64,000 nucleotides of DNA from a virus, in the IMG/VR virus record IMGVR_UViG_3300027806_000039, positions 1 through 64,000 of that record, one strand, 5' to 3'. Numbering within the stretch: the stretch's first letter is position 1; every line of letters begins with the position of its first letter. The notes beneath the pieces are model-generated. The model did not search any database. It saw only the letters and a list, made by a program, of their open reading frames with translations, and was not told where the DNA came from. The position numbers and the translations under genes were made by a program. Shown one piece after another: positions 1,378 through 60,742 of the stretch.

Positions 1378-1640
1378 GGCGTCTTCTCCAGATCGGCGGC
1401 GAGGGCGACGAACCAGCGGACGAGGGCCGCGCCCTCCGCGGTCTTCAGGATGGCGGCCACGTGGCCGGCCAATTCGTCATCGACCCGGCTTTCGGTCTTC
1501 GACGCCAGCCATTCGAGGGCGTCGCCGATGATGACGTTTCGCTTGCCGGCGTCGGTCTCGGCAGAGAACCGCCGGGCGTAGCCGAGCAGGGGAGCCCACT
1601 CGGCGAGGAGCCGGATGTTTTCGATCGCCTGGAGCGGCAT
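1374..1640 (-). CDS. conserved phage protein, homologue of the gene at 21788-22093
   Basis: 88 residues of unknown function. The C-terminal half clearly resembles the product at 21788-22093: both contain Leu-Ala-Ser-Lys-Thr-(Glu/Asp)-Ser followed by Asp-Asp-Glu-Leu, then (Ile/Leu)-Leu-Lys-Thr and Leu-Val-Arg-Trp at the same spacing. The shared protein, in the same late-cassette position in both phages, supports a conserved virion or lysis-related role. No transmembrane segment is apparent and the protein looks all-helical. One base separates its start from the upstream stop. Confidence 0.7.
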   Translation of the reverse strand: MPLQAIENIRLLAEWAPLLGYARRFSAETDAGKRNVIIGDALEWLASKTESRVDDELAGHVAAILKTAEGAALVRWFVALAADLEKTP

Positions 1641-1641
1641 G

Positions 1642-2025
1642 TCAGGCGGTCCTCACGAGCGGTAGCACTTGCTCCACGGCACCGCTCGCGATTGCGAGAA
1701 CGAGCGAACGGACGGCCGGGCGGGCGAGCACCCAGAGCGGGTACACGGCCGACGGCACGGCCTTATCGGCGACGAGGTCGAACAGGCTGCCGGCCGCCTC
1801 GAGCACGATCGCCTTCTTCTCGGCCCCGGTGAGCCCGCTCACGTGGTCGAGCGTTTCGCAGCTCACCCGCAGCAGCGCCACGAGCAGCTCGCCGAACTCA
1901 CGCCACGACAGGCCGTCGGCGGCGGCCGCCTTCGCGGATTGCAGGAACGCGGAGACACGCTGGGCGATGTCGGTGTAGTGGCTGGCGGCGGCGAGCGGCG
2001 GGTTTGCGATCGATCCTGTGGTCAT
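1642..2025 (-). CDS. hypothetical helical phage protein
   Basis: 127 residues from the ATG at 2025, which overlaps the upstream stop as ATGA; an earlier in-frame ATG lies deep inside the neighbour and was not used. The sequence is Ala/Leu/Val-rich and predicted helical, with a hydrophobic C-terminal third (Ser-Leu-Val-Leu-Ala-Ile-Ala-Ser region) that could be membrane-associated. No family recognised. It is coupled between two other small genes of the late cassette. Confidence 0.55.
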   Translation of the reverse strand: MTTGSIANPPLAAASHYTDIAQRVSAFLQSAKAAAADGLSWREFGELLVALLRVSCETLDHVSGLTGAEKKAIVLEAAGSLFDLVADKAVPSAVYPLWVLARPAVRSLVLAIASGAVEQVLPLVRTA

Positions 2026-2309
2026 TTGATGAGCCCTTGTTCCCAGAGTTTCTTTGCCGTGTCGACGTTGCAGCCCAGTTCGTAAGCGAGCACCTCGAAG
2101 AAGGTGACCGTGGGCTTCGGCCGGCTCGTGATGCACCCGATGCCGACCGACTTCTTTGGCTGGTAGTGAACGTGCTCGCCGCCTTCGCCCGGGGGCGCGA
2201 GAGCCTCCCGGCCGTGAGCCGTGTGGCGGAACATCGACTCGTTGATTCGGGCCCGTGAGATCACGTCGGCTCTCCTACCACCATTGTACGTTTGTCCACG
2301 TTTGCCCAT
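2022..2309 (-). CDS. hypothetical phage protein
   Basis: 95 residues. The N-terminus is basic, the middle has a His/Lys-rich stretch, and the C-terminus reads like a helical motif that ends in Leu-Trp-Glu-Gln-Gly-Leu-Ile-Lys. It overlaps the downstream gene by ATGA and follows the kinase gene by 42 bases. I do not recognise the family. The C-terminal 35 residues could form a small helix-turn-helix, but the evidence is thin. Confidence 0.5.
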   Translation of the reverse strand: MGKRGQTYNGGRRADVISRARINESMFRHTAHGREALAPPGEGGEHVHYQPKKSVGIGCITSRPKPTVTFFEVLAYELGCNVDTAKKLWEQGLIK

Positions 2310-2351
2310 GGTTGCAGTGCTCCCCGTCGTCGCGGGCCTGGAGTAGGCCGC

Positions 2352-3227
2352 CTAGAGTTCCGGCCCCCACGCCTCGAGCACGACCTTGCGCAGATCGTCG
2401 AGCGTGCCGTCGTTGTCGATCACGCGGTCCCAGATTGCCTGCATGATGCCGTGCTCGCTCGCGTGCTCCGCAGGCCCTTCGACCCCTGGCCGCAGCACAT
2501 GCCACACGCTCCCTCCGCGGTCCTGGCGGATGTAGTCGGCCTCGTTTTCAAACCGTACGTCGGCCACGGCAATCGTCGTGATGCCGGACTCGATCAGCTT
2601 CGTGATCCGCCGATCGAGGAGCCTGATCCAGATGTCGTCGCACACGTGCCCGCGACCCCATTCCGTGCCGAGAGTCTGGAGCAGCTGCCGCACGCTCTTG
2701 CCAACCCACGGGATCGGCGACTCCTTGAACTTCCGCTGCCGAAGAATCGCCTCCGGAATGTCGAGCATGGTCGAGAGCATGGCGTAGAGCGGATCGGCCA
2801 AGCCGATCACGAACGCTCCAGGGATCATGGACGCGACCGCGTTTTTCCCGGCCCCGGCCCGGCCGGTGATTCCGATGACCGTGGCCTCCACGCCGGCGTC
2901 GGCCGACCAGACCAGCTCGGCCGTCTCCGCGGCGGCCTCCGGCTCGCGGGCCATCTGCCGCGTGCGGTCGGCCTTCTCGCGGATCCCGGCCCAGGCGGCG
3001 GCGAGTTGCCCTTCTGGCATTGTCGCGCCGAGCAGGAACGGCTCAGGCTCGCGGACCTCGACGGGCTGGACCGGCGTCAGTTCGATGCCTGCGATCGAGT
3101 CGAGAAACGCTTGCGGCACGTCGGGCAGGATGGCCGCAGCCTGGGCGGCATCCTTTGCAGCCGTAGCCGCCATCCGGGCCGCGACGGCCTCCCGGAGCGT
3201 GCGGTTGATTTCGTCCATGTTGCTCAT
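2352..3227 (-). CDS. deoxynucleoside monophosphate kinase-like P-loop protein with N-terminal extension
   Basis: 291 residues, started at the ATG at 3227 that overlaps the upstream stop as ATGA. Residues 120-130 contain a P-loop (Gly-Arg-Ala-Gly-Ala-Gly-Lys). It is followed by Leu-Ala-Asp-Pro-Leu, Leu-Leu-Gln-Thr-Leu-Gly-Thr-Glu-Trp-Gly-Arg and Val-Ala-Asp-Val-Arg-Phe, a motif series typical of phage dNMP kinases, which phosphorylate dNMPs to feed DNA synthesis. About 110 residues precede the kinase. The extension opens with Thr-Leu-Arg-Glu-Ala-Val-Ala-Ala-Arg-Met-Ala-Ala-Thr, nearly repeated at the start of the protein at 39384-39890. A late-operon position is unusual for such an enzyme. Confidence 0.75.
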   Translation of the reverse strand: MSNMDEINRTLREAVAARMAATAAKDAAQAAAILPDVPQAFLDSIAGIELTPVQPVEVREPEPFLLGATMPEGQLAAAWAGIREKADRTRQMAREPEAAAETAELVWSADAGVEATVIGITGRAGAGKNAVASMIPGAFVIGLADPLYAMLSTMLDIPEAILRQRKFKESPIPWVGKSVRQLLQTLGTEWGRGHVCDDIWIRLLDRRITKLIESGITTIAVADVRFENEADYIRQDRGGSVWHVLRPGVEGPAEHASEHGIMQAIWDRVIDNDGTLDDLRKVVLEAWGPEL

Positions 3228-26817: not shown

Positions 26818-27963
26818 TCAATCCTTCGCCAGCGGCATCACGATGCAGCGGCAGTCCTGTGCTCGCAGCACGACCGCCGACTGCTCGTTCTCGGCCTCGA
26901 TCTCAATCGTCTCCTCGTCATCGAACGACCCGCAGCCGAGCCACTCCGTGACGAACCGCGGGTCGAGGCTCACGCTGCACGTGTCGCCCGACTCGACCAG
27001 ATCACACGTGCATGACGCCTCGCCGGCCTCGGCAGAACAGCTCGTCAGATGCAGCCCCTCGCCCGTGAAGGCAAACGTCACGCCCTTCGACTGCTCCGAG
27101 GTGCAGATCGCGGCCTGCCGGCACGCCGCACGCAGCGCCCCGACCACAGCCGACGACGGCTTCACCGTCCGCGTCGGCTCTACGTCACGCCAGTTCGGGA
27201 ACCGGCCATCGACTAGCACCGCCCGGATCGTCGTGCCGCCGATCTCGGCCACGATCATCCGGTCACTTGCGTCGATCTGGATGCGGTCATCCGATCCCGC
27301 CAGCCGGCACAGCACATCGACCACCCGTCGCGGCACAATCGGGGCTCGCCGCTGCCCGTTCTTCGGCTCACGCACGAAGTCATCGGTGGACACGTCCACC
27401 TCGCACTCAGCCACGCACATCCGCCGGCCATCGGTGCCGATAAGCGACAGCATGCCCTTGTAGAACTCGATCAGCACACCACCGAGGGCGTAGCGGCTGC
27501 TCTCGTTATCCGTGGCGAAACGGACGGAATTCATCAGCGTGACGAACTGGTCACCCGGCAGATGTACCATCGGCTTCGCGTCCACCTCGCCGGCTGCCGG
27601 GAACTCCCGAGCGTCTTCGACAGGCAGTCGCCACTGGCCACGGCCCGAGCGGACGATGCACGACGTGCCGTCCGCCAGTAGTTCCACGGTGTCGCCCTGG
27701 TCGAGCGACCCGACGATCTTGGTCAGCCGCTCATGCGGCAGTAGCAGATCCGGCCCGTCATAGCAGTCGAGAGGCGTCGTGATCCGCAGTTCGAGGTCCG
27801 TGCCCGTCAGCGTCTCGCCGGAGAGCAAAACGTTCGACAGGATCGGCTTCGGGCTGCGGGCCTGAACAGCCGGGGCCACGGCGTGCAGCGCACGCTTGAG
27901 GTCTGCCACCGACACGCTCGTGCCGGTCACACGCTTCTTTCGTTCCTTCGTTGCTGTCGTCAT
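26818..27963 (-). CDS. dnaN: DNA polymerase III beta subunit (sliding clamp)
   Basis: 381 residues, the family length. The chain starts the three-domain clamp with Leu-Lys-Arg-Ala-Leu-His-Ala-Val-Ala-Pro-Ala-Val, then Lys-Pro-Ile-Leu-Ser-Asn-Val-Leu-Leu. Domain 2 contains Leu-Ile-Gly-Thr-Asp-Gly-Arg-Arg-Met and Asn-Gly-Gln-Arg-Arg-Ala-Pro-Ile-Val-Pro. It ends with Asp-Cys-Arg-Cys-Ile-Val-Met-Pro-Leu, in the place of the common Met-Pro-(Val/Met) strand. It should encircle DNA and tether a polymerase; no phage DNA polymerase was found, so it likely competes for or supports the host enzyme. Confidence 0.88.
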   Translation of the reverse strand: MTTATKERKKRVTGTSVSVADLKRALHAVAPAVQARSPKPILSNVLLSGETLTGTDLELRITTPLDCYDGPDLLLPHERLTKIVGSLDQGDTVELLADGTSCIVRSGRGQWRLPVEDAREFPAAGEVDAKPMVHLPGDQFVTLMNSVRFATDNESSRYALGGVLIEFYKGMLSLIGTDGRRMCVAECEVDVSTDDFVREPKNGQRRAPIVPRRVVDVLCRLAGSDDRIQIDASDRMIVAEIGGTTIRAVLVDGRFPNWRDVEPTRTVKPSSAVVGALRAACRQAAICTSEQSKGVTFAFTGEGLHLTSCSAEAGEASCTCDLVESGDTCSVSLDPRFVTEWLGCGSFDDEETIEIEAENEQSAVVLRAQDCRCIVMPLAKD

Positions 27964-39387: not shown

Positions 39388-39890
39388 TCGCCACGCTCCT
39401 CGCGGTGCAGTAGCAGAGCGAGCAGCGAGTAGCTGGCGAGGTCGAACAGGTTGTCCTCCAGGCTCTCGTTCTCCAGCCGCCCGGTCGCGTTGTACGCGGC
39501 AAGCCTCGTCACCTTGTCGCTCAGCCGCACCATCGCCCCCTTCCACGATGGGATGCCCACGAACCGCGCCCCGTTGCGGATGTTTGCCAGCGGGTCTTCG
39601 CCGCTCGGGCAGCCATAGTCTCGACTCTTTTTTCGGTGCATTTCCTTCAAGGCATCGCACAGATCAAAGAACGCCTGGCTCGTCGGGTGAACTTCGCTCT
39701 TCAACAGCGAGTCGCCACGCTGCTGCTGGTCGTACGTCCTCGTCCACCCAGGCACCTCGGTCGGCTCTGGGTCGCCCTGGTCGATCTTGTAGCCCACGAG
39801 CTTCGGGTCGTTCGGATCGGTCGCTGCCATGCGGGCAGCGACGGCGTCGCGTAGCGTTGAGTTGGCAGCGTCGAGGAGTGCAGCAGTCAC
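39384..39890 (-). CDS. MazG/DUF1599-like nucleotide-metabolism protein
   Basis: 168 residues, GTG start with AAAGGA upstream. Met-His-Arg-Lys-Lys-Ser-Arg-Asp-Tyr-Gly, then Asp-Pro-Leu-Ala-Asn-Ile-Arg-Asn-Gly, Val-Arg-Leu-Ser-Asp-Lys-Val-Thr-Arg and Leu-Glu-Asp-Asn-Leu-Phe-Asp-Leu-Ala-Ser-Tyr match the DUF1599/MazG-like all-alpha group, which hydrolyses or modifies dNTPs. Its N-terminus begins with Thr-Leu-Arg-Asp-Ala-Val-Ala-Ala-Arg-Met-Ala-Ala-Thr, almost identical to the dNMP kinase extension at 2352-3227. Confidence 0.7.
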   Translation of the reverse strand: MTAALLDAANSTLRDAVAARMAATDPNDPKLVGYKIDQGDPEPTEVPGWTRTYDQQQRGDSLLKSEVHPTSQAFFDLCDALKEMHRKKSRDYGCPSGEDPLANIRNGARFVGIPSWKGAMVRLSDKVTRLAAYNATGRLENESLEDNLFDLASYSLLALLLHREERGE

Positions 39891-40957
39891 TTGGATTCCT
39901 TTCGCAAATCACGGTCGCAGAACAATGGGTACGCTTTCGTCACCTCTCGCCGCCCGTGGTCGATCACGATGGCGGCCTGGCACGGCGGCTCATAGGTGGC
40001 TTTGATTCGCACAGCGTACGCCGAGTGTCCAATCACACTGCCGTTCGATACGTAGCGGCCACCTCGCCCCCACGAGAACTGGTGCCAGTGGCCGAGGCAT
40101 GTGAGGTCAGCTGGCGTGGTCGTGTTCCATGCCGCGATGGCCTTGGCGAGCGGCACATGGATGCCGCCGATGCCGCCTTGGTATCGGATCGCATGCCCGT
40201 GGCAGAAACGAACAGTGAACCCATCAAGGTCGAGATAGTTGAGATGCCCTTCGCCAATCTGCCATCTCACGTTTGGCTTCGTCTCGGCGGCCCGCATCGT
40301 CAGATAGAGGTGATGTTCGTAGCTGGTATCGGCTTCGTTCGTCCGCAGCTTTTCAGTCGTTCGCCCGTGGTTCCCGCACGAGGTAGCCACCACCACCTCG
40401 CGGGCGTTGTCAGCCACCGCATCTAGGAAGCCACGCAGCCGTTCGCCCACCCAGCGAATCGCCGCGAGCGGGTGCAGGCTGTTCTCTTCGGCGAGTTCAG
40501 GATGGATCATGCCGCTGATAAGGTCGCCGCCCATCCACACCACCACGCGGTCGATGTCGCACAGCGTCCGCTCGTGAGCGAGCATGGTAAAGAATCGTTC
40601 CTGTAGTTCGGTCAGCCTGGACTCGCACACATCGAGGTCGTAGGCGTTCAGCCCGTTGACCGTCTCGGGCCGCACCGTTTCCTCGCAGTGAATGTCAGAT
40701 AGCAGTACGACCATTGTGGCCGCGTGCTTCTTCGCCTTGGCAGTTTTGGTCAAGGCCCGCTTCGCCGGCTTGATCCCCTGGAGCGAGACAAGGGCATCCG
40801 CCCGCTCGCGTTCCTTGTCGATCTGGGCCAACGCCGCCTTATACCTATTTCGGTATGACGCCAACTCCGCACGCAGCCTCGCCAGTTCGGCGTCGGCAGC
40901 CAACTGCGTCGCGTCAGCCACGGCAGCGTCGATCTCTGTCAGTTGCTTGCGAGCCAT
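39887..40957 (-). CDS. calcineurin-like metallophosphoesterase
   Basis: 356 residues. Residues 1-65 are a coiled coil. The phosphoesterase part carries Leu-Ser-Asp-Ile-His-Cys, Met-Gly-Gly-Asp-Leu-Ile, Ser-Cys-Gly-Asn-His-Gly-Arg, Cys-His-Gly-His and Leu-Gly-His-Trp-His, the complete metal-ligand series. Nucleic-acid or nucleotide substrates are likely, because it is coupled to a nucleotide-metabolism gene. It is the counterpart of the gene at 3224-4408. Confidence 0.8.
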   Translation of the reverse strand: MARKQLTEIDAAVADATQLAADAELARLRAELASYRNRYKAALAQIDKERERADALVSLQGIKPAKRALTKTAKAKKHAATMVVLLSDIHCEETVRPETVNGLNAYDLDVCESRLTELQERFFTMLAHERTLCDIDRVVVWMGGDLISGMIHPELAEENSLHPLAAIRWVGERLRGFLDAVADNAREVVVATSCGNHGRTTEKLRTNEADTSYEHHLYLTMRAAETKPNVRWQIGEGHLNYLDLDGFTVRFCHGHAIRYQGGIGGIHVPLAKAIAAWNTTTPADLTCLGHWHQFSWGRGGRYVSNGSVIGHSAYAVRIKATYEPPCQAAIVIDHGRREVTKAYPLFCDRDLRKESK

Positions 40958-54423: not shown

Positions 54424-54594
54424 TCAGCCGACCTTCAGCCGCCGAACTTCGCCCGGTGGCACGATCTGCTTGTCGGTGCAGCCGCACCGGGCACAGCGGA
54501 GGTACCGCACTTGGTACTCTCCGCTCCGCTGCGACGATGCCACGGCGAGCTTGCCGTCTCGGCATCGCGGGCACGTTTCGCCACTAGCGGCCAT
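54424..54594 (-). CDS. 56-residue zinc-ribbon protein
   Basis: An overlooked small gene: ATG at 54594 overlaps the protease end by 11 bases, stop TGA at 54424. It encodes Cys-Pro-Arg-Cys at residues 8-11 and Cys-Ala-Arg-Cys at about 34-37, a four-Cys zinc ribbon, with basic sequence around it. The codon pattern fits a real gene better than chance. The role is unknown; it separates protease and capsid genes. Confidence 0.6.
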   Translation of the reverse strand: MAASGETCPRCRDGKLAVASSQRSGEYQVRYLRCARCGCTDKQIVPPGEVRRLKVG

Positions 54595-55600
54595 GCTGCC
54601 TCAGGAAATCGCGGAGAGACGCCGCCTTGCCGCGAGCCCGCAGCACGCGGTCGATCTCGGCTTTTCGCACTTCGGCTTCGGCGGAACGCCACGCATCAAA
54701 GGACCGCTTCGCCACGCTCACGTCAGCATCTGGATAGGCCGGGAACGTCACCGGCCCAACGTCGATTAGCGTGTCAATCTTCGTGACGGTGCGGATGCTG
54801 CGTCCGTCTTCCACGCTCCACGCTTCACCGCCTGGAGCAATCTGGAAACTGAAGCTGCTGCCGCGCACGATATTCGCTTCGATGTTGCTGGCAAGATCGC
54901 GCCCGTAGGTTGTGTCGGGCACGGGGAACTCATACCGCAGCCCGATCTCGTCCACGTTCATCCGCAGCGTGCCAGGGAACCTGGCCAGCGGATAGTTCGG
55001 ATCGTGGTTCCAGAGCGCCCGAGTCTCCAATGACTTCTTGCGGCCGCGTCGCTCCGCGACGATCCCGAACGCCTTGGGGTCGATCCGCTCGATAAATTGG
55101 CCGTCGAGTTCCAGCGAGTTCACGCCGAACTTTGCCGCGTAGCCGACGATCCACCGGCTTTCGCCCGCGCCGTCCTCAGACCGCGACTCCACGCGGAGCA
55201 GCGGCAGGGTGCCGGATTCTTCTTCGTACAGGCTGCGTCGTTCGATCATGCTTCGGTTCTCCTCGTCTGCCGCGTTGAGTTGCCGTACCAGTTTGTTTGC
55301 CCACGCCTGCCCGGCGTCACCGCCCCATAGCGCCCAAGCTATACGCCCTGCGCTGGGAAACCCTTGCTCTGATGGGCTGAATCCTTGGCCTTGCTTGTCG
55401 ATCTCGTGCCGGTCGAAATACGCCTTCATCCTGCGAGCCGTGTCGGGCGAGATGCTGACGCCGTTGCTCAGGTCACGGGCTCGAGCAACGCCTACCTCCG
55501 TGCCACCACGGTTGAACTCTCTTCGCCACTCTAGCCCGCGCGCCGCCTCCTCTCGCACACCCGAAGGTGGCGTGAAGTCGACATGGTCATACGTAGCCAT
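54584..55600 (-). CDS. HK97-type prohead protease with an N-terminal extra domain
   Basis: 338 residues. The protease (about residues 118-300) shows Gly-Arg-Lys-Lys-Ser-Leu-Glu-Thr-Arg-Ala-Leu-Trp-Asn-His-Asp (catalytic His) and Ile-Val-Arg-Gly-Ser-Ser-Phe-Ser-Phe (Ser nucleophile), in the U35 order. The first 110 residues are a separate domain with Arg-Gly-Gly-Thr-Glu-Val-Gly-Val-Ala-Arg-Ala-Arg-Asp-Leu and Trp-Ala-Leu-Trp-Gly-Gly-Asp-Ala-Gly, a module I have seen alone and fused in phages. It should trim the capsid delta domain. Overlaps portal by 14 bases. Confidence 0.85.
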   Translation of the reverse strand: MATYDHVDFTPPSGVREEAARGLEWRREFNRGGTEVGVARARDLSNGVSISPDTARRMKAYFDRHEIDKQGQGFSPSEQGFPSAGRIAWALWGGDAGQAWANKLVRQLNAADEENRSMIERRSLYEEESGTLPLLRVESRSEDGAGESRWIVGYAAKFGVNSLELDGQFIERIDPKAFGIVAERRGRKKSLETRALWNHDPNYPLARFPGTLRMNVDEIGLRYEFPVPDTTYGRDLASNIEANIVRGSSFSFQIAPGGEAWSVEDGRSIRTVTKIDTLIDVGPVTFPAYPDADVSVAKRSFDAWRSAEAEVRKAEIDRVLRARGKAASLRDFLRQHGR

Positions 55601-57698
55601 TGGGGGCTTCCGTCTTCGTGATATCAGTCACTTTCGCTCCAGCCTGCCCGTCGAACTCACCGCCATCCCACACGCTGACGAGCGCCGCCGGATCATCTGG
55701 CGTCGCCGGCAGTTCGAGGTCGCCAAGGTTCAGGACGCCTTCGGTCATCACATGATCGACGCGACCGATGCGACCGTCCGCGAGCGTCACCCAATCGCCT
55801 TCCGCAATGGTGCCGGGGGCGGCCCGCTTTGACGTTCGCTTGCGGCTCCGCTTCGCCTTCTTCTCCATCGGCGGCTTCACGGTTTGCGGCGAGTCGTCCA
55901 CCCACACGTCCACGGCGATGCCGGCTGCCTTGGCGGCGTCGTCCTTCAGCGTCTCACCGCCGATGAGCAGCACCTGCGAGAAATACGACTTCCACTCGCC
56001 CAGCGTGTCGGCAACCAGCTGCTGGTTCTCTGGCGTGTCCTCGCGCCGCGAAATCATCACGACCGTGTTGCCGCCCTCGACCGCGTCTTCCGCGAATTCG
56101 CCCCACAGCTTCGGGTCCGCAGCGAACGTGCGGTCGAAGTCGATGCTGAGCGTCAGCGAGCGAGACTCAGGCAGCGAGCGAGCCAGCGGAGCGGCAGGAC
56201 CTGCGGCCGGTTCTGTGGCCGGGGCCGGCACGGGCGTGTCTGGCACACCCGCCAGAATCGCGTCGATCTGCTGCTGCGGAATAGACGGGAAGGCTGCCGC
56301 GACCATTGCAGAGGCACCGGCCTTGGTAACGAGCCCCGTGCTCACCTGCTGAATGATCGCGATCAGCCCCGTGATTTGTGCACCGTTCAGCGAGACTTCC
56401 GCCACCTGCGGAGCGGCATCCGCGGCCGGCTGCGTGGCCGCATCGACGCCGCCTTCGACCGCCTGGCCGTCGATGCCACTGCCCGGCATCTGCTGCGCCA
56501 TCACATCGGTCGCGGTGGGGCTTTCCCCAAGCGTGCCCATGTTCAACGGCCGATGCCGCACGTCGCCGCCTTCGACCGGGTTCATGTCCTCCAAGGCGAG
56601 GATGTCGTTCGTGCTGAGCACGCCAATGTCCCACATCGAGCGGTAGTAGCTTGATCGGCTCGCCGCGTCACCGCGGAGCAGCCCGCGAACGTCAAACGAA
56701 ATCTGGTACCGCTCACGGCTCGCGTCATCCGGCATCAAGTCGCGGGTGAACGCCGACTCCAAGCGACGCAGCCACGGCAAAATCGTGTGCTGCACGAAGT
56801 CGAGGCCAGCATGCTCAATCGAGCCGTAGGAGCCGCCGCCTACCTGAAGCAGGTGCATCGGGATGCGGAACAGCCTGGCGATTTCCTCGAGCTGGTACCG
56901 CCGCAATTCCAAGAACTGCGAATCGCTATTGCTGGCATACGGGATCCCATAGGGCTTGAGGCCGCCCGTGAGCACCGCCGTTTCGAAAGCGTTGTGCGGG
57001 CCGCGATGCTTGCGGTTCCACCCTTCGGCCAGTTCCCGGCGAGCCTCCGCGTTGAGCGGATTGTCGGTGCTGAGAATGAAGCCGGGCCGGGCACCGCCGC
57101 CAAAGAATCTCGCCCCGTGAATCTCGCACGCCCGTGCCAGCGCAATCGCATCGCGGCACGACTCTGCGATGCTCTCGCCATGCACGCCGTCATCGCTCGG
57201 GCCGCGGACGTGCAGGATTTGCTCCTGCGAATAGACCGTCTGACGCCCCTTCGCCTCGCGATAGCTGTACCTCAGCCGGTCGTTCTCAATTGTCTCGACC
57301 TTCATCCGGCTCGGGTGCAGCGGCAGCACTTGGTCAGCCGCCCCCGACGCCCCCGGCTTGATCTCGCTGTAGGCGTCGCCCCACAACGCGACATGCCGCA
57401 CCAGCTGCTCCCGCCACTCAAACGAGGTCTGCCATGCGTTCGGCTGAGAGTGCAGCCGGCGATAGAGAGGCAGTTCCTTAGCCTGACGCTTGCCGCCGTT
57501 GCTCAGCCGCTCGAGCACATGGAGCGGCAGGCTCGCCACCGTCTCGCTCAGGATCCGCACGCACGCGAATACCGCCGCCACCATCGTGGCGTTGTCGGCA
57601 CTGATCCGCACACCCGCCGGGCTGCGGCTGCCGCCGTCTTCATCCCACGAACGCTCGTCGCCGGGTAGCCAGAGGATGCGATTTTCGTGGGCGATCAT
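55587..57698 (-). CDS. portal protein fused to a C-terminal HAD phosphatase-like domain
   Basis: 703 residues from the ATG at 57698 (ATGA with the terminase). Residues 1-400 are an HK97-family portal (Ala-Cys-Val-Arg-Ile-Leu-Ser-Glu-Thr-Val-Ala-Ser-Leu-Pro and Ile-Pro-Met-His-Leu-Leu-Gln-Val). Residues about 516-608 form a HAD domain: Asp520-Phe-Asp522-Arg-Thr (motif I), Ser550 after a hydrophobic strand (motif II), Lys585/590 (III) and Asp601-Asp602 (IV). A basic linker and a 50-residue SH3/KOW-like domain (Gly-Asp-Trp-Val-Thr-Leu-Ala-Asp-Gly) close the chain. The unfused part is a normal portal size. No stop or frameshift separates the parts, so the fusion is read directly from sequence. 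Confidence 0.85.
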   Translation of the reverse strand: MIAHENRILWLPGDERSWDEDGGSRSPAGVRISADNATMVAAVFACVRILSETVASLPLHVLERLSNGGKRQAKELPLYRRLHSQPNAWQTSFEWREQLVRHVALWGDAYSEIKPGASGAADQVLPLHPSRMKVETIENDRLRYSYREAKGRQTVYSQEQILHVRGPSDDGVHGESIAESCRDAIALARACEIHGARFFGGGARPGFILSTDNPLNAEARRELAEGWNRKHRGPHNAFETAVLTGGLKPYGIPYASNSDSQFLELRRYQLEEIARLFRIPMHLLQVGGGSYGSIEHAGLDFVQHTILPWLRRLESAFTRDLMPDDASRERYQISFDVRGLLRGDAASRSSYYRSMWDIGVLSTNDILALEDMNPVEGGDVRHRPLNMGTLGESPTATDVMAQQMPGSGIDGQAVEGGVDAATQPAADAAPQVAEVSLNGAQITGLIAIIQQVSTGLVTKAGASAMVAAAFPSIPQQQIDAILAGVPDTPVPAPATEPAAGPAAPLARSLPESRSLTLSIDFDRTFAADPKLWGEFAEDAVEGGNTVVMISRREDTPENQQLVADTLGEWKSYFSQVLLIGGETLKDDAAKAAGIAVDVWVDDSPQTVKPPMEKKAKRSRKRTSKRAAPGTIAEGDWVTLADGRIGRVDHVMTEGVLNLGDLELPATPDDPAALVSVWDGGEFDGQAGAKVTDITKTEAPNGYV

Positions 57699-59314
57699 AT
57701 GAAGAAGATTTCGGGTGTGGATGCCGAGTTGGTGACGCTGTTTGCTTCCCACCCGCCGAGCGCGAATATGCACGCCACGATGCCGTCAATGCGTCCAGTG
57801 CTCTTCTTCTTCACTGGCCGAATGTCCTCGAACGCATTGCTCTCCGTGCACACACACCCAGCCATCCACGACAGCACAGGATTTCCTCCGTGCCGAATCC
57901 GCTGCTGAAGCACAAGCGACTCAAGCAACTTCGTCGGGCTGCTCATGGAGCGGAAGCCTTGCCCGAATGATTCCACGGAGAGCCCTTCCCCTTGCAGTTC
58001 CACCCCCAGCTGCACAGCACCCGTCATGTCCATCAAGACGCGCTCCACCTTGTGCTTTTTCGCGTATTGCAGCACGTACTCGCGAATAACAGCGTGGTCG
58101 ATCACGTTGCCGTCGGTGGCCGTGATGTAGCCAGAGTTCACCCAGTGCTGGAACGGCTGGCGATCAGTCCGCTCGCGTTCCATAATCAGGTCGCGAGGCG
58201 CCCAAAACATCGCATCGATGTCGAAGGTTCCATCGTCAGACGGGAACAGAGCGACGCATGCCGAAAGGTCAGTGGACTTCGACAAGTCCATGCCGATGAT
58301 GCACTTCCTGCCGGCGAGTGGCTCTCGCGGCATTTCAGAGCAGGCCGCCCACTTCTCCGGGTCAAGCCACCTGTTCGTGCTCTCTACCCAGACCCCAAGC
58401 GAATATCTCAGCCAGCCATTGAGCTTCGACGGCTTATTCCTCGCCTCTTGAGCATCGGCCGCGAAGCTATCGACCGTCATGGTGATCCCCATGCCAGGAT
58501 TGCACCGCTTCCATACAGCCGGGTCGAAGTAGTCATCGGTCCCGTCGGCCTTGGCCGCGAAAATCTTCCCGTAGAACCTTGGGTCGTACTTCGGATCTGC
58601 CATCACCTGCTCGGCGTATTCGTGCTGCTCCCAGCAAATCGTGTCTCGTCGGTCGCCGGCCGTCGTGATCGTCGCGAGGAGCGGCTCTCGCCTTGAGCGT
58701 CCCGAGTAGCGAAGCGCCTCGAAAAGGCGTCGGTCGGGCCATGCATGCAGTTCGTCGCAGAACACGAACGAATAGGACGGCCCTTCAGCCGCACCGGCGT
58801 CGCGTGAAATCACCCGCATACTGCTGCCGGTCTGCTGGCAGACAATCGTCTTTCGCGAGTCGATCACTTCAAGCGACGCGGCCAACTCTGGCGAACGCTT
58901 CACCATCGCGGCTGTCTCGTCAAAGATGATCGCCGCCTGGTTTCGGTCTTTGGCAGCAATGCAACCCAACTCGCCGTCGCCCTCCATCAGCAAGTGCCAA
59001 ATGGAAAGACACGAAAGAAGCGTTGATTTAGCGTTTTTCTTCGGCACCTCAAGGTAGGCGAGCCGATACCGCCTGAGCCCGTCGTTCGTCTTCCACCCGT
59101 AGAGCGGCTCGATCACGTCGTGCTTGTGCCAGTCGAGCAGACGCATCGGCTCGCCGGCCTTCGCCGTTGGCGAGTCTTTCGTGTGGCAGCACACGGCCTC
59201 GAGGAATTTGATCACGAGGTCGGCGGCGTCACCGTTGTAGGTGTAGCCCTCGACCCACTCATGCCTTCTTCTTGAGGGCAAGGAACTTGGCGAGCGTGCT
59301 TTCTTGCTTGGCAT
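57695..59314 (-). CDS. terL: terminase large subunit
   Basis: 539 residues. The ATPase half has Walker A-like Val-Pro-Lys-Lys-Asn-Ala-Lys-Ser-Thr and Walker B Phe-Val-Phe-Cys-Asp-Glu-Leu-His-Ala-Trp. The nuclease half has Ile-Ile-Gly-Met-Asp-Leu-Ser and a later Val-Leu-Met-Asp-Met-Thr-Gly, as in HK97-type large subunits. It packages DNA into the prohead. The start overlaps the small subunit by 56 bases. Confidence 0.92.
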   Translation of the reverse strand: MPSKKARSPSSLPSRRRHEWVEGYTYNGDAADLVIKFLEAVCCHTKDSPTAKAGEPMRLLDWHKHDVIEPLYGWKTNDGLRRYRLAYLEVPKKNAKSTLLSCLSIWHLLMEGDGELGCIAAKDRNQAAIIFDETAAMVKRSPELAASLEVIDSRKTIVCQQTGSSMRVISRDAGAAEGPSYSFVFCDELHAWPDRRLFEALRYSGRSRREPLLATITTAGDRRDTICWEQHEYAEQVMADPKYDPRFYGKIFAAKADGTDDYFDPAVWKRCNPGMGITMTVDSFAADAQEARNKPSKLNGWLRYSLGVWVESTNRWLDPEKWAACSEMPREPLAGRKCIIGMDLSKSTDLSACVALFPSDDGTFDIDAMFWAPRDLIMERERTDRQPFQHWVNSGYITATDGNVIDHAVIREYVLQYAKKHKVERVLMDMTGAVQLGVELQGEGLSVESFGQGFRSMSSPTKLLESLVLQQRIRHGGNPVLSWMAGCVCTESNAFEDIRPVKKKSTGRIDGIVACIFALGGWEANSVTNSASTPEIFFI

Positions 59315-59752: not shown

Positions 59753-60742
59753 TCAGCACTCCACAAAAACTAGCCGCAATTGCCCGCCAGCCTTGTTGCT
59801 CTTCCTGCCGTTACATCTCCGGCAGAGGCACTGTGAATTGTCGAACGTGTTGCCTTTGCCTGGCACGCCCCATGACAGTGGCACGATGTGATCGTGCTCA
59901 GCGTTGCGTAGGCTGGCCTTGCGGGTTCGCTTATTGATCCGCCACGGTCCTTTATGGCACTTTGTGCCGCAGTTCTGGCAGACCCAACCGTCACGCTCGC
60001 ACACGGCCTCCCTAGTGCACACCGGGTCGAACGGGACGTTGTAGTGACGGCATTTCCGCCGAAGCGTGGTCGTTCGGGTTATCTTCGCCCAGCTCTCCCT
60101 GGCCTGGCCGGATCGCTCGGCACGCGGGCGATTCTTTCCCCATCGATGGTCCATTGAGCACTCGCGAGAGCAGAACTTGTTTTTGCCTTGCCACTCGTTC
60201 TTCAAGCTCCTCTTTGGAAATGGCTTGCCGCACTGAAGGCATTGAATCGAAGGACGGTGTCGCGTGTTGTGGAAACACGCCCGAGAGCAGAACTTGCCAT
60301 CGCCGGCTCGGCCCGCGCGCCGCTCAAACTGTTTCCCGCAGGCTGTGCAGTTGATTACGACCCGGCTGCGGCTGGCTGTGTGGCCGCACTGCGCGGAGCA
60401 GAATTTCTGCCGTGGCCGAGATGACAGAAATGCGTTCCCGCAATGCAGGCAGCAAAGCGAGTAGATTTTGTCTCTCCCTGCCCTGTGTCTTTCGCGACTG
60501 CGCGCGACCTCTTTTGCTGCCATGCATTTTGGGCACAACTTTGGGAACGGCCCTCTTCTTGGAAGCTGTGAAAGCGATGTTCCACAGCCGACGCACGCTG
60601 CGGAACTCCACTTTGTTGTCGCCCTTGATCTCAGCCTGGCGGAAGTGTTTTTCGACTTGCAAGACGGGCAGCGAATTGGCCAACGGCGTGCTGGCAACTG
60701 GCGTTGAAGTTGCGATCCGCAGTCGATGCATGCGCGAGACAT
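59753..60742 (-). CDS. HNH endonuclease with multiple zinc ribbons
   Basis: 329 residues. At least five Cys-x-x-Cys pairs (for example Cys-Ile-Asp-Cys, Cys-Pro-Ser-Cys, Cys-Val-Gly-Cys, Cys-Leu-His-Cys, Cys-Gln-Asn-Cys) spread over residues 1-260 suggest several zinc ribbons. The C-terminal nuclease has Asn-Ala-Glu-His-Asp-His-Ile-Val-Pro-Leu and Leu-Cys-Arg-Arg-Cys-Asn-Gly-Arg-Lys-Ser. It lies between the typical phage HNH gene at 60900 and terS, so it may be an inserted homing gene. Confidence 0.75.
   Translation of the reverse strand: MSRACIDCGSQLQRQLPARRWPIRCPSCKSKNTSARLRSRATTKWSSAACVGCGTSLSQLPRRGPFPKLCPKCMAAKEVARSRERHRAGRDKIYSLCCLHCGNAFLSSRPRQKFCSAQCGHTASRSRVVINCTACGKQFERRAGRAGDGKFCSRACFHNTRHRPSIQCLQCGKPFPKRSLKNEWQGKNKFCSRECSMDHRWGKNRPRAERSGQARESWAKITRTTTLRRKCRHYNVPFDPVCTREAVCERDGWVCQNCGTKCHKGPWRINKRTRKASLRNAEHDHIVPLSWGVPGKGNTFDNSQCLCRRCNGRKSNKAGGQLRLVFVEC

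Follow-up and report, generated by a model that had tools for sequence, protein, structure and literature searches.

The portal protein of an uncultured phage carries in its C-terminal part an intact, conserved and, judging from its motifs, apparently catalytic HAD phosphatase domain. Among related portals this domain is an exchangeable cassette, for which the portal tree requires no fewer than 18 to 28 switches. The usual view of portals is that of purely structural gates for DNA; the fusion means that the inner end of a portal can carry enzymes, in a set number of copies, next to the end of the DNA. Identical portals that differ in having or lacking the enzyme provide a clean natural experiment, and the fusion gives a functional lead for a family of stand-alone HAD proteins that many phages of E. 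coli, Klebsiella and Vibrio encode.

A portal gene continuing into a HAD domain

The sequence analysed (64,000 nucleotides, hereafter the window) corresponds to positions 1-64,000 of an IMG/VR virus record of 73,309 bases. On its minus strand are found, in this order, genes for the terminase small subunit, the terminase large subunit, the portal, the prohead protease (Peptidase_S78) and the major capsid protein. The features are as follows; residue numbers refer to a 728-aa or a 703-aa reading of the portal gene, as indicated.

57695..59314 (-): terminase large subunit (PF20441, PF03354)
55587..57698 (-): portal-HAD-Tudor fusion gene, 703 aa from the conserved ATG (PF04860, E-value = 8e-95)
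56586..57575 (-): phage portal domain, residues 67-396 (728), from PF04860 and AlphaFold
56250..56384 (-): three-helix bundle following a disordered stretch, residues 464-508 (728)
56163..56228 (-): Pro/Ala linker, disordered (pLDDT <50), residues 516-537 (728)
55875..56156 (-): capless HAD domain, predicted phosphatase, residues 540-633 (728) or 515-608 (703)
56141-56139, 56135-56133 (-): codons of D520 and D522 (703)
56051-56049, 56045-56043 (-): codons of S550 and R552 (703)
55946-55944, 55898-55893 (-): codons of K585 and D601/D602 (703)
55815..55883 (-): basic disordered linker KPPMEKKAKRSRKRTSKRAAP between the HAD domain and the barrel
55605..55808 (-): Tudor/SH3-like barrel, homologous to tails matching Hva1_TUDOR
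54584..55600 (-): prohead protease (Peptidase_S78) with an N-terminal domain (PF04586, E-value = 6.8e-36)

A reading of the window made from the sequence alone (the sequence-only reading) had claimed that the portal chain runs without a stop into a domain with all HAD motifs. One open frame (57773..55587, minus strand) indeed holds both. This frame reaches a GTG at 57773 (728 aa), and the start common to nearly all relatives is the ATG at 57698, 25 codons in (M26 of the 728-aa reading). Accordingly, the 703-aa numbering used in the sequence-only reading (Asp520) is right, and the HAD segment that it delimited (56153..55875) corresponds to residues 541-633 (728) or 516-608 (703). The ATG at 57698 overlaps the terminase stop codon, and the start of the prohead protease overlaps the end of the portal gene. 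The PF04860 match and the location of the gene between TerL and Peptidase_S78 identify the protein as a portal of the HK97 type.

The three-helix bundle has a counterpart in a Streptococcus phage portal. The Pro/Ala linker ends in ARSLPES, a joint that recurs among the relatives. The linker KPPMEKKAKRSRKRTSKRAAP is similar to the basic C-terminal tail of portals having the HAD domain only. The basic linker and the SH3/KOW-like tail had also been predicted, and the tails of relatives match Hva1_TUDOR (PF11160) at 1.1e-6, over the cutoff; the window portal's own tail, searched alone, did not reach the PF11160 cutoff.

Motifs, fold and family of the HAD domain

The window domain exhibits D520-x-D522-x-T524, S550-x-R552, K585 and D601-D602 (703 numbering). 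The acidic residues are never lost in homologues: among 64 distinct copies D-x-D-x-T, S/T-x-R, K and DD show no variation, and stand-alone phage HADs conserve these residues too. In a profile of portal HADs and stand-alone phage HADs together, D12, D14, T16, R44, K77, D89, W91, D93, D94 and P96 are invariant.

A 102-residue piece of the window HAD matches phrog_4919 (E-value = 9e-14, positions 7-94 of 126) and phrog_4256 (E-value = 6e-11). These are stand-alone phage HADs, such as KNP2 gp168, CHOED_035 and the rV5_ev158 "polynucleotide kinase". They share with the portal HAD the motifs D-x-D-x-T, T/S-x-R, K and D-[VI]-W-[VIM]-D-D-x-P, a length of about 100 aa and the capless form. Unlike the portal HAD, they are encoded by a separate small gene, often in a replication/nucleotide region, with no fusion to a head protein. 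The Pfam and NCBIfam HAD models did not match the window domain, and PF00702 was matched by one of 18 members of the family (at 0.0076). Searching solved structures with the HAD profile returned only designed Rossmann folds and weak matches to AphA or BT0820.

Structure prediction bore out the fold assignment, AlphaFold (52 aligned sequences) giving a HAD fold at pLDDT >90. Neither outcome that the sequence-only reading had named as refuting it, a non-HAD fold or random loss of the acidic residues, was thus observed. When 1000 solved chains were realigned with VIA-align, the top five were T4 Pnkp entries, aligned through their 3'-phosphatase domain with Z 9.5 to 8.9 and 15% identity over some 96 residues (rmsd 3.2 for the best). 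MDP-1 is the next match (Z 8.2), followed by several other HADs (Z 6 to 7.5); other capless HADs are within about 1 to 2 Z units of the T4 Pnkp score. This realignment was clearer than Foldseek on the two-domain model, which gave weak E-values (0.02 to 0.1). The top BFVD structure matches were prohead proteases/XkdF proteins and unnamed proteins (A0A6J7WT14, H9YSG6 and D6PFE4 among them); the XkdF-type matches may run through the Tudor domain rather than the HAD domain.

The 3'-phosphatase domain of T4 Pnkp (PseT) is therefore the best solved structural match, with aligned motifs including the SxR arginine. The portal HAD differs from it in being shorter, fused to a portal and a phosphatase by prediction, at the low identity given above. 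The domains flanking the window HAD are portal and Tudor, and not a polynucleotide 5'-kinase domain. A profile comparison with T4 PseT (hhalign) aligned DxDxT, SxR, K and DD with weak statistics (P 0.0087, probability 4.6%). Because these statistics are weak though the motifs align, the likeness to Pnkp is a lead on the substrate, not proof of Pnkp membership.

Recurrence of the fusion

Scanning IMG/VR with the HAD domain identified 279 relatives, 80 of which were kept. Looking for the same fusion in other phages, as had been proposed, proved fruitful: over all loci fetched it is present in 82 distinct ORFs of IMG/VR contigs, plus four more with a truncated 5' end, and the remaining 16 comprise 13 stand-alone HADs from annotated phages together with L144, L145 and L106. 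The matches that tblastn gave for the HAD domain among annotated phages were, as far as we examined them, separate small genes, none of them an annotated portal.

Median dN/dS (Nei-Gojobori) was 0.21 for the HAD domain, 0.32 for the portal core and 0.61 for the Pro/Ala linker, at loci partly picked by HAD likeness, which biases the comparison of identities and may have somewhat lowered the HAD value. These ratios point to purifying selection that is stronger on the HAD domain than on the portal core.

Many uncultured phages thus carry the portal-HAD fusion, and their host is probably Planctomycetota. Genome collections gave two matches, both in Planctomycetota MAG contigs, one of which (14,915 bases) is probably the same contig as the IMG/VR record L067; for this reason the host assignment is tentative.

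Exchange of the portal tail

A search with the portal core alone gave 67 distinct portals with complete ends. The HAD domain is present in 25 of the 67 (ten of these also with Tudor, two with an HExxH tail), Tudor occurs without HAD in 34, and eight have neither. A tree built from 132 portal cores implies no fewer than 28 switches of the HAD state, 18 of which are forced by well-supported branches, in an unrooted count that does not tell gain from loss. Four sets of identical portal cores include members both with and without HAD, and an identical 339-residue core occurs in the two states. The tails found on identical cores are HAD, Tudor, both, neither, or zincin-like. The DNA of L022 and L037 illustrates the exchange: the two match at 91% before the joint and at 96% from roughly the stop codon onward, and between these points one has HAD, the other Tudor. 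Elsewhere in the records of fusion-less portals, which are fragments, no relocated HAD was found in 17 of 18.

The joint preceding the cassette tends to be [AG]RSxxExRA, whether a HAD, Tudor or zincin-like tail comes next. Of 84 distinct linkers, 56 have an R[SA]x joint at this place, as compared with 13% of shuffled ones. The tails of most portals in this group are basic: those with at least seven K/R in the last 30 residues number 91 out of 132, as compared with 5% of core stretches. Some of the switches may be assembly chimeras of co-occurring strains; this is unlikely for all of them, given the number of contigs.

Other domains at the same site

Besides Tudor, the tails and neighbours found at this site include a zincin-like HExxH domain, an LPD1-like part and an Ntox46-HAD protein, the zincin-like and LPD1 assignments both being under the curated cutoffs. 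In L133 the order is portal, HAD, a CGTGAGGFKPGNKC linker and a HEFGHH domain, with a weak match to LPD1 ("large polyvalent protein-associated"). L144 comes from a Phycisphaerales MAG. Its portal core closely resembles the cores of the HAD-fused L128 and L075, but the portal ends in a HEMGHH domain, and the HAD begins as a separate ORF just downstream. L145 encodes a 374-aa protein (1489-2613, minus strand) that combines Ntox46 (E-value = 1.1e-9) with the same HAD, between portal and protease, and its gene adjoins a zincin-like ORF. The N-terminal domain of the window's prohead protease (54584-55600, minus strand) corresponds to phrog_2859, which is a separate ORF in L145; the whole stretch from portal to protease is therefore modular.

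A Cys-Gly-rich linker (CGTGxGGFxxGNxC or FCPTGxGGGxDNSC, with a Gly/Ser run) precedes varied C-terminal domains of head-cluster proteins, in portal tails and neighbouring ORFs of L133, L084, L085, L032, L144 and L145. It may be a general cargo joint. In L032 (2914-5613, plus strand) a portal-Tudor protein has about 250 residues after a CGTGAGGF linker, for which no Pfam family match was found.

Comparison with known head-protein fusions

Enzyme-portal fusions are an already known kind. The head-protein fusions described include PBECR, 2H, InPase, Nudix and ART (PMC5512222, PMC9503650). The portal HAD resembles these portal/MuF-fused polyvalent effectors (Iyer et al. 2017, 2022; same references) in placing an enzyme on a head or portal protein within the head cluster, and in alternating with Tudor, zincin-like, LPD1-like and Ntox46 parts. 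Another parallel is with MuF polymorphic toxins (PMC5576092), where a phage head protein has a switching C-terminal domain; here the carrier is instead the portal, the cassette a predicted phosphatase, and no immunity gene was identified. What appears to be new is the HAD partner, its breadth and its swapping among near-identical portals. We did not find these described in the literature searched, which covers subscription journals thinly, and a HAD-portal fusion is not named in either survey of portal-fused enzymes (PMC5512222, PMC9503650), in keeping with the remark in the sequence-only reading that no described portal with an intact HAD enzyme was known.

Possible roles of the portal HAD

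The explanation that we prefer, with about even confidence, is that the HAD domain is a working capless phosphatase carried as optional, exchangeable virion cargo on the portal C-terminus, not a part of packaging, and that it would act on nucleic-acid ends or nucleotides. The C-terminal parts of portals face the capsid interior. About a dozen HAD copies would therefore ride in the head beside the DNA end (some 12 per virion, going by portal stoichiometry), tethered by flexible linkers to the inward-facing C-termini. Their likeliest work would be to take phosphates (3'-phosphates or cyclic phosphates) off the ends of nucleic acids, or to dephosphorylate nucleotides, when the DNA enters the cell or shortly afterwards, as repair or counter-defence. 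Since the portal normally stays in the virion, injection of the HAD domain would need cleavage; the enzyme responsible for release, if any, might be the prohead protease of the adjacent gene. The fusion, the HAD fold, its intact conserved motifs, the selection on it and its exchange are shown by the results above, and the activity, substrate class, place inside the capsid, release and injection are inferred. The stand-alone HAD relatives lie among genes for DNA polymerase, MazG, 5'-3' exonuclease and dNMP kinase. Enzyme domains fused to portal or MuF proteins have been interpreted as effectors that are packaged and injected (PMC5512222, PMC9503650), and in P22 the ejection proteins cluster around the portal's inner end (PMC4992974). 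A scan of the window genome (Pfam on 20 further ORFs; ARAGORN) revealed neither an RNA ligase nor a tRNA gene, so the ORFs scanned there do not corroborate an RNA-repair pathway.

A bolder version, which we regard as doubtful, makes the portal C-terminus a polymorphic docking site: near-identical phages would exchange cassettes (HAD, zincin-like peptidase, others) behind a shared RSxxExR joint, the prohead protease would detach each cassette for ejection along with the DNA, and the HAD would repair nucleic-acid ends broken by host defence nucleases.

Capless HADs more often use large substrates, and the sequence of the portal HAD points to no one small molecule. It is unlikely, in our estimate, that its substrate is a free small molecule, such as (d)NMPs or a phosphorylated signal of host defence, in the capsid or the newly infected cell, even though its stand-alone relatives adjoin MazG, dNMP kinase and DNA polymerase genes and the portal-fused InPase, Nudix and 2H domains have been proposed to act on nucleotides (PMC5512222, PMC9503650).

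The sequence-only reading proposed that a phosphatase at the DNA entry vertex could act on DNA ends or nucleotides as the genome is packaged or ejected. In one form of this idea the domain would stay at the portal and work on the end left by terminase cutting. Its placement at the DNA entry vertex, the basic tails adjoining it and a nearest fold that is a 3'-phosphatase acting on DNA and RNA ends would all suit such a role. However, terminases leave 3'-OH/5'-phosphate ends, which need no 3'-phosphatase, and two relatives (L144 and L145) encode the HAD apart from the portal, in a protein whose gene follows that of the portal. Packaging is also unlikely to need the HAD domain, because portals with an identical 339-residue core lack it. 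A role in packaging as such is weakened by these observations, and we consider this proposal a little less likely again.

The alternation of the HAD domain at one joint with a Tudor barrel, likely a binding domain, could mean that it too is a binding or structural module, its motifs kept by descent and without catalysis. This is improbable: all 64 distinct sequences retain the nucleophile, acid/base, SxR, Lys and DD, whereas the linker varies almost freely, and the stand-alone relatives conserve the same residues. Lastly, the contigs are metagenomic and L106 looks chimeric, but recurrence in 82 distinct open fusions, with dN/dS well under 1, rules out an artefact of assembly or frame, or a chance origin, to a negligible residue of doubt.

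Other genes of the window

An HNH endonuclease with zinc-ribbon-like repeats is encoded just upstream of the terminase genes (59753-60742, minus strand). An ORF at 39887-40957 (minus strand) exhibits a weak calcineurin-like phosphoesterase match (E-value = 3e-4, under the cutoff), and a phage-encoded DNA polymerase III beta clamp is located at 26818-27963 (minus strand).
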